NCBI RefSeq assembly: GCF_001244545.1
Contig: NZ_LN852695.1
Coordinates: 713,158-777,157 of the forward strand
Length of the DNA stretch: 64,000 nt
Direction: 5' to 3'
DNA from: Candidatus Stoquefichus sp. SB1
GTDB taxonomy: Bacteria > Bacillota_I > Bacilli_A > Erysipelotrichales > Coprobacillaceae
This document shows, piece after piece, positions 45,496 to 53,518 of this stretch (its first letter is position 1; each line of letters begins with the position of its first letter). The position numbers were made by a program, and so were the translations under genes. A model generated the notes under the pieces. That model worked only from the letters and a program-made list of their open reading frames with translations, did no database searches and was not told where the DNA came from.

Positions 45496-45969
45496 ATGAA
45501 AAAATTAGGAGTATTATTGCTTGTATTATGTTTATGGGGATGCAATCAACAAACAGTATCAAAACCAAGCAAAGCAAATACAGAGATATATCAATAGTTA
45601 ATGAATAATATAAAAATAACAATGCCATCAGATGTCTATAATGCTTTAAAGAATAAGGAAATTTATATAAAAGTAAACAATACTTTTTTAATTGCTAATG
45701 ACAAAGAAAATCCAACACTCAGATTAGATTTTACTTATCAGGATGGTAAACTTGTTCAATATGTAAGTAAAAAATATGGTTTTGTTGATAATATGAAAGA
45801 TGACAAGATAAATGAAGAAAATGCTAAAACTTTGATTCAATTATTTGCTATGACTTTCTTTAACCAAGAAGTTGCTTTATCAAAAATCACACCATTAAGC
45901 GGTTATGAAACAGAAAACTATATGATATTTGAAGATATTCACAAGGTGATGTTTATCTTGTTCGGTTAA
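45496..45969 (+). pseudogene. Small lipoprotein gene interrupted by one in-frame TAG
   Basis: From ATG 45496 the frame gives a lipoprotein signal (MKKLGVLLLVLCLWGC, lipid on the Cys), a Lys/Ser linker to ...EIYQ, then TAG at 45595-45597. The same frame continues open for another 123 codons to 45969 (LMNNIKITMPSDVYNALKNK and on), a beta-rich extracellular domain with no other defect. One base change, for example CAG or AAG to TAG, would explain it. No strong RBS precedes the ATG (AGTGAATTG). It is either a fresh pseudogene or a real read-through case. An internal ATG at 45601 could make a signal-less protein. Confidence 0.75.
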
Positions 45970-46253
45970 ATAAAAATATGATTATAAAATATATAAATAA
46001 TAGTGAAGTTGTTTAGCGCTTGTTATGAATATCATAAAAATTGTAACAACTATAATGTAATTAACAAAATAGATGATATTTTGATACAAGTTATAATTCA
46101 TAAGTTGCCCCAAAATATGAATGATATGAAACTATGTCAAGTTCTTTTGGAATTCATAGATATAGTGTTGGGAATATGATTTCTATTATGATGATGGAGG
46201 AGTGATTGGTATGAGGCATAAATCTAAAAGTATAGGGAAAAGAGGGGAATAAT
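45970..46253. other. Intergenic region before the peptide and sensor-like genes
   Basis: AT-rich with no long ORF. Only the 13-codon micro-ORF at 46211 stands out at the right end. There is no obvious T-tailed hairpin in the first 230 bases. Confidence 0.5.
46211..46252 (+). CDS. 13-codon micro-ORF (possible signal or leader peptide)
   Basis: ATG 46211 is preceded by GGAGGAGTGATTGGT, one of the best RBS sequences in the area, and reads MRHKSKSIGKRGE then TAA. The stop is one base from the ATG of the membrane protein at 46254, whose own RBS (AGAGGGG) lies in the end of this frame. It could be a signalling peptide, a leader controlling the next gene, or a decayed remnant. Evidence is only the RBS and position. 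Confidence 0.25.
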   Translation: MRHKSKSIGKRGE

Positions 46254-46841
46254 ATGTATAATTATCAGTATTGGATTGTTTTAGAAAGAGTAGTAACAGA
46301 TATAATGATTATGACTTTACTATTAAAAACAAAAACTATAGACTATAGAAAAAAATATGGAATTTATATAATCTTATTATACTTTTTGACAACTGTCATA
46401 TTGAGTTTAATGCAAAGTCAAATATGGTATTGTTTGTATTTTGTTTTAGATATAGTTATGGTGCTATATATGACTAATAAAAGTAAAAGGGGTGTATATT
46501 GTATTCTTGTTTTTAATATACTTATCGAGTTATTAAATTATATTTTTATGTATTATGGATTTATTTATCCAATCCATAATATATTCTTGTATTTAGGACC
46601 GGTATGCATAAGTTTTGTATTATTTATGATTTTATATTATGTGCTTAGGAATAAAAATGATATTTTTAATAAATTAAATTTCATATTTAATACTGTCTTT
46701 CTTCTGATATGGATAATTTTTACAAAAATTATTTTTCGATATACAATATATGATTTAGGAATGATTTATTACATTTTACTTGTCATTATTTTCTGGTCAG
46801 TAATTAATATCACCTTATCTCATATAGAAAAGAAAATATAA
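46254..46841 (+). CDS. Six-TM membrane protein resembling a sensor-kinase membrane domain
   Basis: 195 aa, nearly all hydrophobic, with about six TM segments and no soluble domain. The size and spacing resemble the N-terminal half of AgrC-type GHKL histidine kinases. The chain ends (LSHIEKKI) about where the coiled-coil and kinase would begin. No kinase frame follows. It may be a truncated sensor, an immunity protein or a transporter accessory. Assignment is tentative. Confidence 0.5.
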   Translation: MYNYQYWIVLERVVTDIMIMTLLLKTKTIDYRKKYGIYIILLYFLTTVILSLMQSQIWYCLYFVLDIVMVLYMTNKSKRGVYCILVFNILIELLNYIFMYYGFIYPIHNIFLYLGPVCISFVLFMILYYVLRNKNDIFNKLNFIFNTVFLLIWIIFTKIIFRYTIYDLGMIYYILLVIIFWSVINITLSHIEKKI

Positions 46842-47229
46842 TTACTATAAATAATATACATGTTTGATCTTTTAATTAGTGAACATAATGCTAGGATTCA
46901 TAAAGATTTCAATATATCCTCACTTAATGATAAATGACAGTATTTCCTATTGTGATTTAATTGATCAATATATTGTATCAATAAAACCAGTGCGTCAATG
47001 GATGGCGAAGGTCAATCAATCCATAGGTTTTTGTATTGTTGTTTTTGTGTTAAGATAAATAAGAAAAAATTATTAACTTTATCATTAATTATAGTTATAG
47101 AAACTCAAAGGTATGTGATATATCAAATAATAAATCAGAGTAAACATAGATATTATAAAATAAATTATTTGGGATATAGAATAGTGATAATAAGGTATTG
47201 TAATGATTCTAATGAAAGGAGTATTTGAT
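46842..47229. other. Gene-free stretch containing the ddl relic
   Basis: Besides the ddl fragment I see no credible gene. The open frame 46998-47228 has no RBS and an unlikely composition. RBS GAAAGGAG for the next gene lies at about 47213. Confidence 0.5.
46887..46983 (+). pseudogene. Decayed fragment of the ddl 3' end
   Basis: It aligns without gaps to ddl 45277-45373 at a constant offset of 1610. By my count 64 of the first 80 aligned bases are identical. The frame still reads GFIKISIYPHLM and SYCDLIDQY against GFTKISMYPQLM and PYCDLIDQL of Ddl. No upstream ddl sequence is nearby. It is a relic of a second ddl copy or of a segmental duplication. Confidence 0.75.
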
Positions 47230-49359
47230 ATGAAGATAAAAAAATTTCTGATGTTTTTAACTTGTATATTAGCGGTAGTTATGTCGTTTTTTACATATAA
47301 GTATCAAAATTTAAGCTATTATTATAGATATAGTTCGTACAATGATTATATAACGTCTATTGAAGAAAAAGAAGTTATACCAATATGGGTTGAATTAATT
47401 GATCAAGATAAGAGTGCTGTTACAGATTTATTAATAAAAATGACAGAATTTTCTTTAGAAAATAATACTGACTATGTAATTGTGAAAAATGTTCATGAAG
47501 ATTTTACAACAAACATAGATAAATTTTATTTATATGCACATCATGAGAATTTATATAATGATTTTAAAAATCGTGGTGTTAGTGAACTGGATTTTACTTC
47601 AATTCAACGACAGGGATACTATACAACAGATACAAGTGATAAAGATGCAACTGGTATTATTCATATCTTAGATAATCAGATTTTTAATCAACATAAATCT
47701 CATTCGCAATTTTTACCAGTTTTGCAAAGTGTTGATGAAATATATCAACAACAAAACTTTTATGTTTATTTTTATTCAGATAATGCAGCTGCTTTTACTT
47801 TAAAGATTGACGATTGGTTAAAAAATAATTATTCTGGGAAACTCCAATATATTAATGATATAGATCATTATCATGGTGCCGAATTAAATAGTTTTTCTGA
47901 AGAGAGTATGATGAAACTAAATAATATTTTAATTTGTATTGGTTTGGCATATGTTGTTTACTATATTATTTATTTTATGAAACAAAGAAAAAAATTTATG
48001 ATTCAAAGAATGTATGGAAAAAGTATTTTGACTATTTTTTTAAAAGAATGTACTCAAACATTTATATTGACATTGGTGTTGTTTAATTTATGTTTATATA
48101 TAAGTAATTATATGATAAGTCATTATCAAACTTTTCAAGATACTGAATTAAGATATATGCTTTATACAATGAGTTTAAGTATGGTTATAGGATTGTGTGT
48201 AGTTGGTATTTTACTGTATTTATTTATGATGAAATCAACTTCACTTAAAGAATTAAAGAGTGGTACGTCCTATAAGAAAAATTTATTTATAACTATGGCT
48301 TTAAAAGTTATTGTTATTACATTTATGTCAACTCCATTTATTACTTCATTTTCTAGTTTTATAACAAGTTCAAAAGAAGGTTATTTTTTGAATAAAAATT
48401 ATGATTTAGTTGCTAAAAATTATTATCTTGATGGATCATTTGATGAAACTGAAAACAATCAAAAAGTGATGGAATATTATCTTAATAATGAAGGAATGTA
48501 TTGTGATTTTATGACTGGTTATTCACAACAGTATGAATTTTTAAAGGAAACATTTCCTGAGGTGGATCAGGAACAGCTTAAAGAAAGCAGTGTGAATTAT
48601 CCTGTAATTTATGCAAATCAAAATTATATATTACATCAAAATAAAATATATGATACTCAAAATCAGGAAGTAGATTTAAATCAATATTCAACTGATGTTT
48701 TATTAGTTCCCTCAAAATATATGGCTGAAGAATTAGAAAAGAGTATGTTAAGTTCGCAGGTTTCCATTGTAGAAATAAAAAATCCGGGTACGTTTATTAA
48801 TTTTTTTGGTATAGAACCATTTACAATAACAAATCCAGTTATCTATTTGTGCAAAAATTATAATATTAATCTTAATATGAATATGTTGTATATACCAAAG
48901 AGTATTTCTTTACAAAATATTACTGAAAATATAAAGAAATTGACGGGAGAAAATCCTGTATTAGTTGATTTAGAAAAAAGAATTGAATCTAATTTTACTG
49001 ATATTCAAAATCAAATATTAGAATTTGGAACTATTGTTATTCTTTATATGATTTTATTTGTTGGAATCATATATCAAACTGCATTTCTTTTTATTGAACA
49101 ATATAAAAAGATACTTAGTATTTTATATGTGTTTGGTAAAAATCGCTATGAACGTTATTCTTTTTTAATGATAATGAGTTTAATTTTCTATTGTATTCCA
49201 ATCATCATACAGTTATTAATGCATCAAATAACATTTTTATCAATATTATGCTTCAATATTGTTTGTATTGTGTTTGAGTGTATTTGTATATTAGTTTTTG
49301 TGAGATATTTAGAGAAAAATAGTGTGAGTGTAATATTGAAAGGAGAAGAAAAATTATGA
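47230..49359 (+). CDS. Bacteriocin-associated (DUF1430-like) membrane protein, copy 1
   Basis: I start at ATG 47230 (MKIKKFLMFL) because GAAAGGAG precedes it; 47203 is in frame but lacks an RBS. About 709 aa: one N-terminal helix, a 200-residue extracellular domain, three helices (about 235-345), a second extracellular region, and three helices at the end including the FtsX/MacB-like permease pattern. Size and layout match the 7-TM bacteriocin-associated protein family found with lactococcin-972-type ABC transporters. It overlaps its ATPase gene by 4 bases. Confidence 0.72.
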   Translation: MKIKKFLMFLTCILAVVMSFFTYKYQNLSYYYRYSSYNDYITSIEEKEVIPIWVELIDQDKSAVTDLLIKMTEFSLENNTDYVIVKNVHEDFTTNIDKFYLYAHHENLYNDFKNRGVSELDFTSIQRQGYYTTDTSDKDATGIIHILDNQIFNQHKSHSQFLPVLQSVDEIYQQQNFYVYFYSDNAAAFTLKIDDWLKNNYSGKLQYINDIDHYHGAELNSFSEESMMKLNNILICIGLAYVVYYIIYFMKQRKKFMIQRMYGKSILTIFLKECTQTFILTLVLFNLCLYISNYMISHYQTFQDTELRYMLYTMSLSMVIGLCVVGILLYLFMMKSTSLKELKSGTSYKKNLFITMALKVIVITFMSTPFITSFSSFITSSKEGYFLNKNYDLVAKNYYLDGSFDETENNQKVMEYYLNNEGMYCDFMTGYSQQYEFLKETFPEVDQEQLKESSVNYPVIYANQNYILHQNKIYDTQNQEVDLNQYSTDVLLVPSKYMAEELEKSMLSSQVSIVEIKNPGTFINFFGIEPFTITNPVIYLCKNYNINLNMNMLYIPKSISLQNITENIKKLTGENPVLVDLEKRIESNFTDIQNQILEFGTIVILYMILFVGIIYQTAFLFIEQYKKILSILYVFGKNRYERYSFLMIMSLIFYCIPIIIQLLMHQITFLSILCFNIVCIVFECICILVFVRYLEKNSVSVILKGEEKL

Positions 49360-50000
49360 GTGATGTTGTGAATGTGAAACATTTAGTAAAATCATTTGGA
49401 GAACATATTGTTTTGGACGATATTAATTTGTGTGTTAAAGAGAAAGAAATTTTTATTGTGACAGGACCCTCAGGTTGTGGAAAATCAACATTACTAAATA
49501 TAATTGGTTTACTAGATCAACCTGATAGTGGAGAAATCATATTATTTGGAAATAAAAATATTAAACCATTTTCAAAAATGGCAGAAAAAGTATTAAAGAA
49601 TAAAATAGGCTATCTTTTTCAAAATTTTGCATTATTAGAAAATGAATCAGTATATAGTAATTTAGAAATGATAATGGCTAATAAAGTGAAAAATAAGCGT
49701 GATGAAATTGCTTTGGCATTAGAGAAAGTTGGTTTAAAAGGATATGAAAAGAAAAAAGTTTATGAATGTTCTGGAGGAGAACAGCAACGTATTGCCTTAG
49801 CAAGGTTACTTTTAAAACCATGCGAGTTAATACTAGCTGATGAGCCGACAGGAAGTCTTGATCAACATAATAAAGAAGAAATTATTCAACTATTACTTAA
49901 ATTAAATGAAGAAGGAAAAACAATCATTATGGTTACTCATGATAATGAATTATTGAAATATGCGACAAATGTGTATTCGTTTTGGAATGATTCTTTTTAA
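49356..50000 (+). CDS. ABC ATPase of the DUF1430 pair, copy 1
   Basis: 214 aa. Walker A GPSGCGKSTLLNIIGLLD, signature CSGGEQQRIALARLLL, Walker B LILADEPTGSLD, as in LolD/MacB-type and lactococcin-972-group ATPases. Translation is coupled to the membrane gene (ATGA overlap). Close paralog at 52226, very similar throughout (for example NIIGLLD, YLFQN, CSGGEQQRIALARLL). Confidence 0.87.
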   Translation: MSDVVNVKHLVKSFGEHIVLDDINLCVKEKEIFIVTGPSGCGKSTLLNIIGLLDQPDSGEIILFGNKNIKPFSKMAEKVLKNKIGYLFQNFALLENESVYSNLEMIMANKVKNKRDEIALALEKVGLKGYEKKKVYECSGGEQQRIALARLLLKPCELILADEPTGSLDQHNKEEIIQLLLKLNEEGKTIIMVTHDNELLKYATNVYSFWNDSF

Positions 50001-50156
50001 TGAAAATAAAAAGATTTATTCTAATGTATTATATTTATTTAAAACGATGATATTAGAGAATATTTTGAGGAATCAATAATTATTGCTTTTATGTAGATTA
50101 TCATTCTTATGAAATGATTCTTTAATTGATAAGAGTAAGAAGAGAGGAATGAAAAC

Positions 50157-52226
50157 ATGAAAAAGATATTAATCATTTATATTGTGTTTGTTGCTTCGCT
50201 TCTTTTTTATATGTCTTATGATTCATATAATTATATGAATTGTGCAAGGATAGCTAATATAAGTAATAAAATAACAGAAGAATTATTTATATGTAATATA
50301 GATGTGGATGATTCGTTAGCTATAGCAGAAGTATTTAATACAATAAATGAGTTTGCTTATAAAGAAAACACTGAATTTGTACTAAATGAAAATATTGTTG
50401 AAGATGATGGGACAATGCTTTATAACAAGTATCTATACGCTACTGATAATCAATGGATTTATGATACAGTGAGAATGACATCAGGTCAAAAAATTGACTT
50501 TATGAAAAAAGCTACTTCACAGGATTATTTATCTTCTAATAAAAATGACAAGCAAGCAAAGGGAACATTTAGTTCTTATGACAATACTTATTTTGCTTAC
50601 GAAAATGAAGTTTACAGATTTTACAGTGCTAAATCAAGTGTTGAAAATATGAAAAGCAAATCATTTTCCGTAGATATGGTGGATGCTGAAAATGCGAATA
50701 AATTATCAGAACGACTTATTGAAAAATATGGCAATCATTTAAAATGTGAAGTCAATCATCCTTATGGCGGAAGTGAAAGTGATATATTAACTGTATATAG
50801 GTACTCAGATATTCAATTTGCATTTATATGTAGTTTTGCAATTATGGGAATTATGATGATTTGTATTATTACTAAAGATAAGCGAGAAATTCTCATTCGA
50901 AGAATGAATGGTAATAATGCATTTGGTATATGTATTCGCCTGTATTCTCAAACATTATTTGTTGATTTTGTTGTATTTGTTTTGACAATTATAATAATAT
51001 GGTGCGTGTTAATTGGAAAGTGGGATAGTTATTACATTGAACTTTTCAATGATATGAAAAGATTTTCTACATATGCTTTTTTGTCTATTCCATGTTTATT
51101 AATTTTAAGTGGAGTTTATGTTCACTATACAGTTGATATAAGAGAATTAAAAAATAATCAGTCATTAAAGGTAATGAATAATTTAAACTATCTATTTAAG
51201 ATAGGAATGAGTTTGTTTTTAATTGTGCCTTTTGTGACGAGTTTTCATGCAACCTTGCCACATATTATAAAATATCAGTATGTTCAATCAAATAAGGAAA
51301 AAATAGAACAGTATTGGCATTTTGCTTTTTCAGAGGCTTCACCAGAGGAAATGAATGAAATATATAAGAGTTGTTTATATGTTGACATGACAGATTATAG
51401 TCATATGAGCAAGATAAATGCTATTATGAAACCAGGTTATGATAGTGGTGAGGGAAATATGAGTGTACCCCTTGTTACGGTCAATGATAACTATTTAAAA
51501 GATTTTACTTTATTTGATTTAAACAATCAAAAAATTAACATTGCTTCTTTGCCTGAAAAGACAATGCTGATACCAGAGCAGTATCAGCATACAGAATTAA
51601 CACCTTCGCAAATGTATGAAGCAGAAAATAAGATCATAGTTAAGAATACAGGAACTCATTATAATTTACAGGTGAGAGAAAGCAATTATAAGCTAGATAA
51701 TCCAATTGTATTATTAATTCATGATTATAGCGGAGATGTTTCCTGGAATAATATTTATTTTAAGGCTGAAACAAAGCAAAAATATAATGAACTGCATAAT
51801 TATATACAAAGCATTACGAAAAAGTCATATAAGTTATTAAATACATCTGCTGATATAACTCATTATACAATTAGCGCTCAACAAGTCTTTACTGAACTGT
51901 TCAGTAAACTGTTCATCTATGGTTTTGTATATTTGTTATTTATATTACAGTTTATGACATTGTATATTCAGGATTGTAGAAAAGAAATGAGTATTCAATA
52001 CATGCTAGGCAAATCAAAATGGGATAGATATGGAAATATGTTTATTATTAATGTTTGTATTTATTTATGTATTATTTTATTAGGGGTATTGTGGCAGAAT
52101 ATAGCATTAAGTATGTGTTTAGAGTTTAGTGCTATCTTCTTTAGTTTTGACAGTTTGCTTATGTTTGTCTATATTAAACTGTTTGAAAAAAAGAGTATAG
52201 TTTTAAGTCTGAAAGGAGAATATTAA
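50157..52226 (+). CDS. Bacteriocin-associated (DUF1430-like) membrane protein, copy 2
   Basis: 689 aa, RBS GAGAGGAATG. Same layout as the protein at 47230: N-terminal helix, long extracellular region, helices near 220-350, another extracellular part and a C-terminal helix group ending KSIVLSLKGEY. The two chains are recognisable paralogs at the ends (FEKKSIVLSLKGEY against LEKNSVSVILKGEEKL) but diverge in the outer domains, which suggests different ligands. Confidence 0.72.
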   Translation: MKKILIIYIVFVASLLFYMSYDSYNYMNCARIANISNKITEELFICNIDVDDSLAIAEVFNTINEFAYKENTEFVLNENIVEDDGTMLYNKYLYATDNQWIYDTVRMTSGQKIDFMKKATSQDYLSSNKNDKQAKGTFSSYDNTYFAYENEVYRFYSAKSSVENMKSKSFSVDMVDAENANKLSERLIEKYGNHLKCEVNHPYGGSESDILTVYRYSDIQFAFICSFAIMGIMMICIITKDKREILIRRMNGNNAFGICIRLYSQTLFVDFVVFVLTIIIIWCVLIGKWDSYYIELFNDMKRFSTYAFLSIPCLLILSGVYVHYTVDIRELKNNQSLKVMNNLNYLFKIGMSLFLIVPFVTSFHATLPHIIKYQYVQSNKEKIEQYWHFAFSEASPEEMNEIYKSCLYVDMTDYSHMSKINAIMKPGYDSGEGNMSVPLVTVNDNYLKDFTLFDLNNQKINIASLPEKTMLIPEQYQHTELTPSQMYEAENKIIVKNTGTHYNLQVRESNYKLDNPIVLLIHDYSGDVSWNNIYFKAETKQKYNELHNYIQSITKKSYKLLNTSADITHYTISAQQVFTELFSKLFIYGFVYLLFILQFMTLYIQDCRKEMSIQYMLGKSKWDRYGNMFIINVCIYLCIILLGVLWQNIALSMCLEFSAIFFSFDSLLMFVYIKLFEKKSIVLSLKGEY

Positions 52227-52882
52227 TGGAAACAATAGTAAAATTAGAAAATATTAGTAAATCTTTTCAGGGAGTCGAAGTTTTAAAGGATTTGAATTTA
52301 ACAATTCAAAAAGGAGAGTTTGTTGCAATTATAGGAGCATCAGGTTGTGGGAAATCAACATTGTTGAATATTATCGGTTTATTAGATAAACAAGATCAAG
52401 GAGACATGACTCTATTTGGAGAAAAGAATGTTAAACCTTTTAGTCATAAAGCCGAGATGATATTAAGAGATAGGATTGGATACTTGTTTCAAAATTATGC
52501 CTTAATAGAAAATCAGACAGTTGGCTATAATCTAGAGATTGTTTTTGATCATAAGGTAAAGAAGGAAGAAAAGAAACAGAAGATTCAAGAAGCCTTGGAA
52601 AAAGTAGGTCTAAAAGGAATAGAGAATAAGAAAGTTTTTAAATGCTCAGGAGGAGAACAACAAAGAATAGCCTTAGCACGATTGTTGATTAAACCATGTG
52701 ATTTGGTTTTAGCAGATGAACCAACGGGGAATCTAGATATAGAAAATAGAGAAAAGGTCTTACAGATCCTAAAGGATTTAAATCAGCTAGGGAAAACAAT
52801 TATCTTAGTCACACATGATTTAGATGTCGCAAAGGAATGTCAGAAAGTATTTAAAATGAGCAATCATCAAATTAAATATTAA
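52226..52882 (+). CDS. ABC ATPase of the DUF1430 pair, copy 2
   Basis: 218 aa, ATG sharing a base with the preceding stop. Walker A GASGCGKSTLLNIIGLLD, signature CSGGEQQRIALARLL, Walker B LVLADEPTGNLD, H-loop VTHD. Partner of the membrane protein just upstream. Together with 49356 the two cassettes form a tandem duplication. Confidence 0.87.
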   Translation: METIVKLENISKSFQGVEVLKDLNLTIQKGEFVAIIGASGCGKSTLLNIIGLLDKQDQGDMTLFGEKNVKPFSHKAEMILRDRIGYLFQNYALIENQTVGYNLEIVFDHKVKKEEKKQKIQEALEKVGLKGIENKKVFKCSGGEQQRIALARLLIKPCDLVLADEPTGNLDIENREKVLQILKDLNQLGKTIILVTHDLDVAKECQKVFKMSNHQIKY

Positions 52883-53207: not shown

Positions 53208-53260
53208 ATATCCAACAACCCTATAGTAAATACAAAGATAGGAAATAGTAGATAGTGTAA

Positions 53261-53518
53261 GATGCGTAGAGAGATTTCGGTTGGTGAAAGAAATCGTGAT
53301 GACATTATTGAACTCATCCTTGAGTGGAGCACTGAAACAGTAGGAGTAAGCTGCTACGGAACTTGCGACCGTTATCACGCTAGAGTATGAACTTAAAATA
53401 AGCGTACTTGATAAGGTTATTGCTGTGAGGCAATAATAAATATGAGGTGGAACCACGAAGTGAATAACTCTCGTCCTCTATTATGAATTTGTTTTCATAA
53501 TGAGGAGCGAGATTTTTT
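53261..53518 (+). promoter_or_regulatory. T-box riboswitch, leucine specifier
   Basis: Stem I begins GCGTAGAGAG; the distal loop region has GGTTGGTGAAAG. The specifier loop GAACTCATCC carries CTC at 53313-53315, a leucine codon. The conserved T-box AGGTGGAACCACG is at 53445-53457. A strong terminator follows: CTCTCGTCCTC...TTATGAA (from 53468) pairs with TTCATAATGAGGAGCGAG, then TTTTTT. Uncharged tRNA-Leu should favour read-through into leuA. Confidence 0.92.

Follow-up and report, generated by a model that had tools for sequence, protein, structure and literature searches.

The window analysed here, 64,000 nucleotides of contig NZ_LN852695.1 from Candidatus Stoquefichus sp. SB1, encodes two head-to-tail pairs of ABC transporter genes, a permease followed by an ATPase in each (pair 1, 47230-50000; pair 2, 50157-52882). 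All four genes are intact and, like the other genes and relics of the island located below, are on the + strand. Pair 1 comprises permease 1 (47230-49359, 709 aa) and ATPase 1 (49356-50000, motifs intact), and pair 2 comprises permease 2 (50157-52226, 689 aa) and ATPase 2 (52226-52882). The permeases match TIGR01654 (E=3e-19, 68.8 bits for permease 1; E=4e-14, 52.1 bits for permease 2), both below the curated cut-off of 189.35, and each has a marginal match to DUF1430 (5e-6, slightly below the Pfam cut-off). The ATPases match TIGR03608, with ATPase 1 just under the curated cut-off of 254.85 (E=8e-75, 250.7 bits) and ATPase 2 above it (E=2e-79, 265.6 bits). The four genes are real and are assigned to the TIGR01654/DUF1430 and TIGR03608 families, in agreement with an original prediction, made from the DNA letters, of two head-to-tail pairs of a DUF1430-like protein (709 and 689 aa) and an ATPase.

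In both permeases a single N-terminal helix is followed by a large outer domain and a membrane block, and then by another outer domain with the last membrane block behind it. A structure model of permease 1 (pLDDT 55, low confidence) ranked YbbAP first among folds, followed by MacB and the Streptococcus pneumoniae transporter 5xu1. The Pfam match of the permease to FtsX is weak, and a sequence search against solved structures gave no detectable match. A sensible reading is that these proteins are type VII ABC permeases whose single chain contains two FtsX-like halves, as that of YbbP does, with the fold detail predicted at low confidence.

The pairs had been described as paralogous tandem cassettes. 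A maximum-likelihood tree rules out tandem duplication: permease 1 groups with relatives from two other genomes, G041 and G023 (support 100/99), and permease 2 with those of a third, G042 (100/100), to whose frameshifted copy it is 41% identical. ATPase 2 likewise groups with G042 (98/97), and the pairs are not sister duplicates. G041 and G023 have the pair-1 type without the pair-2 type, and G042 has the converse, which argues that the two cassettes were inherited separately and came together in the island of Candidatus Stoquefichus sp. SB1. A plasmid match for permease 1 was not found, and a contig scan using the ATPase alignment yielded, for the most part, ABC transporters unrelated to these. 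Several permease relatives in G042 (L031, L036) and in another genome, G037 (L033), are frameshifted or interrupted, and cassette decay appears to be common in the family.

Directly 5' of permease 1 we identified the relic of a lactococcin-972-like peptide gene (47052-47228), comprising its first half, i.e., the signal-peptide region and early mature part. The start codon is absent, and most of the cysteines and the C-terminal half are gone. An ungapped alignment of 50 aa to the peptide encoded before the G041 permease has 16 identical residues and a score of 70 (maximum 41 in 60 shuffles and 45 in 324 tiles of the window). The comparison to a peptide of the sister species (genome G001) scores 53 and random tiles reach 50; the relic call therefore relies on the match to the G041 peptide. 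We did not find a clear peptide relic before pair 2, where the gap gave one score above shuffle level (38 vs a maximum of 28, for one of six peptides tried) that we judge too weak to claim. No lactococcin-972-type bacteriocin gene had been visible at first reading; this holds for an intact gene, but not for the half-gene relic. The layout of lactococcin-972-type operons (a signal-sequence peptide gene directly 5' of permease and ATPase) is thus not intact here, and it is intact in related loci. The G041 peptide gene (L028 430-774) precedes the closest relative of permease 1 and contains one in-frame TAG; the permease and ATPase that follow are open. This overturned an assignment of the G041 pair as peptide-less, and G041 is another instance in which the peptide has decayed while the pumps were retained.

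Other remnants lie further upstream. The region 46078-46184 aligns, with one frameshift near 46139, to the 5' end of the agrB gene of the sister species in a frameshift-aware comparison. The score of 72 was reached by none of 60 shuffles (mean 24.8, maximum 35), and a repeat gave z=13. A profile of only six AgrB sequences found nothing significant in single reading frames, because the relic is frameshifted. A response-regulator 3' end was also considered for the region of the micro-ORF described below, but those alignments were at shuffle level and AgrB fits strongly. At 46868-46976 lies a degenerate second copy of the ddl 3' end (score of 139 to the ddl of this genome; maximum 74 in shuffles, 0/200 reaching it), nearer to the ddl of this genome than to the G001 gene. 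It is the scar of an earlier insertion or duplication where ddl ends, and duplicates of this kind may show how islands come to occupy this site. A lipoprotein pseudogene (45496-46010) is interrupted by an in-frame TAG at 45595 and changes frame near 45945; in its homolog (48% identity) in G001 (C14:20404-20754, outside the island), the matched part is free of stops.

An open reading frame of 13 codons (46211-46252), preceded by GGAGGAG, immediately follows the agrB relic. It had been proposed as a micro-ORF with a strong ribosome binding site preceding a membrane protein gene, and both the frame and the GGAGGAG are present. However, no counterpart was identified upstream of the orthologous membrane protein gene in G001. 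Given this, and its position abutting a decayed fragment, the micro-ORF is probably not a gene.

The membrane protein itself (46254-46841, 195 aa) is intact, has 6-7 hydrophobic helices and is restricted to the genus. Its G001 ortholog (201 aa, 42% identical) is encoded in the same island. Differences between the two genes at the three codon positions are 0.40/0.24/0.52, with second positions the most conserved, which fits purifying selection. No match was found in Pfam, NCBIfam or PHROGs, and convincing relatives among 316 genomes of the order were limited to this genome and the sister species. Marginal matches occur in other families; the best of them, on inspection, seemed unrelated. A single-sequence structure prediction (pLDDT 57) was unusable. 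The original prediction of a six-TM protein is consistent with the helix count, but its proposal of a truncated, AgrC-like protein is contradicted by the full-length ortholog, and comparison with AgrC membrane/sensor domains was negative (hhalign probability 0.2%, E=0.38, with low power as the alignments held only 2 and 3 sequences). We therefore rejected a truncated AgrC. The protein represents an orphan family associated with this island.

The island lies between ddl and leuA, and G001 has both genes in the same places. A T-box leader (RF00230, 108.6 bits) is located at 53226-53481, directly 5' of the leucine/branched-chain operon at the boundary of the island. The ddl-leuA island of G001 encodes a LytTR response regulator, a histidine kinase, AgrB, an AgrD-like peptide, two secreted proteins, the ortholog of the 195-aa protein and a MacB-like transporter. 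Lacking there is any TIGR01654 pair. The MacB-like ATPase-permease of that island (L008 9808-11629) is split over two reading frames (316 + 299 aa) and is apparently broken. We suggest, from the two genomes compared, that the ddl-leuA junction is a variable spot, or hotspot, for bacteriocin-type islands in the genus.

Across 43 genomes from the family, the pumps and the peptides are associated. Of 10 permease-bearing genomes, 8 also encode the peptide, which is found in 0/33 permease-less genomes at E<1e-5 (Fisher p=3e-7), or in 3/33 if weak matches are included (p=4e-5); the genomes are related, and these p-values overstate their independence. The related peptides are ~110 aa long with a signal sequence, Sec-type by inspection, and in most a C-terminal H-x-H. 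They match no Pfam or NCBIfam profile, including the lactococcin-972 family, at E<=0.1. Thus, the label lactococcin-972-like rests on gene order, size and pump families. A secreted matrixin-like protein (PF00413, E=3e-9, HELGHPYGLGD motif) is encoded in G042 (L031 9824-10354) near the frameshifted relative of pair 2. The cargo of pair 2 may differ from that of pair 1, and this protein is a possible candidate for it.

We consider it probable that the locus is a decayed bacteriocin-island hotspot that keeps two type VII ABC self-protection pumps, with the bacteriocin lost and immunity kept. The agr-type quorum-sensing unit of the island would have decayed to an agrB stump and the peptide gene before pair 1 to its first half, with two ABC pairs of independent origin staying intact. 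Each permease, with its two FtsX/MacB-like halves and two outer domains, would work with two ATPases as a type VII ABC machine. As this fold suggests, ATP-driven movement of the outer domains could remove the peptide or free its envelope target. Immunity, rather than export, is the most likely function of the pairs, which may be retained for protection against peptides of neighbours or of a second locus in the same genome. In the lactococcin-972 literature, the two ABC genes are regarded as putative immunity genes (PMC4055356).

The second locus (C5:170000-182500; L005 375-12258) is complete: it encodes three sets of permease and ATPase, two secreted lactococcin-972-like peptides and AgrB, together with a LytTR response regulator and an AgrC-like kinase; an orthologous locus is present in G001 (L030 8294-20000). 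Its two peptides offer a potential cargo if the pairs in the window export a peptide encoded elsewhere, and TIGR03608 carries the name 'putative bacteriocin export ABC transporter'. We regard this as unlikely. Three pumps are already present within the locus. Its peptides carry Sec-type signals, so export by an ABC pair is not required, and the related streptococcin B is described as managing without a dedicated transporter (PMC11796350).

To a similar degree improbable is that the pairs now serve in general envelope duty, removing lipid-linked compounds or antibiotics as BceAB or YbbAP might, with no link to a bacteriocin. The fold ranking with YbbAP and MacB would suit such a role, as would the absence of a clear peptide relic before pair 2 and the pump pairs of G023 and G042, for which no peptide was detected. 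The peptide relic at pair 1 and the strong association of the two families argue against it. A working six-gene system for sensing, export and immunity, in which the 195-aa protein is the sensor and the micro-ORF the signal, as first proposed, would draw on the conservation of the 195-aa gene beside agr genes in the sister island and on the GGAGGAG motif, but is very unlikely given that the micro-ORF is not conserved, the agr genes are lost, and elsewhere each type of pump is found apart from the other and from the 195-aa gene.

The original prediction had itself named independent expression and inheritance of the cassettes, or homologs always lacking the micro-ORF and the six-TM gene, as observations that would speak against its proposal. 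In line with these, the cassettes are separate in other genomes, and pumps exist without the 195-aa gene. What survives of the proposed self-contained system, or relic of one, is the relic, represented by the agrB, peptide, ddl-tail and lipoprotein remnants.

The reading of retained self-protection pumps can be taken further, at a level we consider doubtful. The island could be a selected 'immunity stockpile', in which a hotspot beside murF-ddl sheds bacteriocin and signal genes and accumulates unrelated pumps, each against the peptide of a different neighbour. The 195-aa protein would then be a new accessory immunity or regulatory factor.

Loss of the bacteriocin with retention of immunity, and island hotspots, are known from streptococci, and the probable reading would extend both to another AT-rich bacterial family. 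The pump family is also linked to a divergent family of peptides, one not captured by current profiles. According to the literature, the function of the permease and ATPase, immunity included, has not been experimentally verified in any lactococcin-972 locus; the combination of two orphan pumps with a complete producer locus therefore makes this genome usable as a test case.

The predicted architecture would resemble that of YbbAP and other type VII ABC machines (MacB, LolCDE, BceAB). YbbP has two FtsX-like halves and two outer domains on a single chain, served by a separate ATPase (PMC12646458), as we predict for these permeases. YbbP differs in having 10 TM helices, compared with ~8 predicted here, and a hydrolase or kinase partner was not found. 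With agr quorum-sensing loci the window shares the agrB relic, and the sister island the full set of response regulator, histidine kinase, AgrB and AgrD; unlike these loci, the window island retains no intact agr gene. There is also a parallel with the lactococcin 972 and streptococcin operons (lcn972-orf2-orf3; scbABC), which have TIGR01654 permease and TIGR03608 ATPase families in identical order, with a signal-sequence peptide directly 5', as in loci related to these pairs. In contrast to those operons, the peptide here is only a relic, its related peptides match no published profile and the permeases fall below the TIGR01654 curated cut-off. Streptococcins are controlled by ComRS/ComE, whereas agr-type genes adjoin relatives of the pairs described here. 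Peptide gene loss with pumps retained is described for streptococcins as well (PMC6120550, PMC11796350): most partial clusters in pneumococci no longer have the bacteriocin gene but still carry immunity/transporter genes, and they occupy hotspots where clusters replace one another (PMC6120550).
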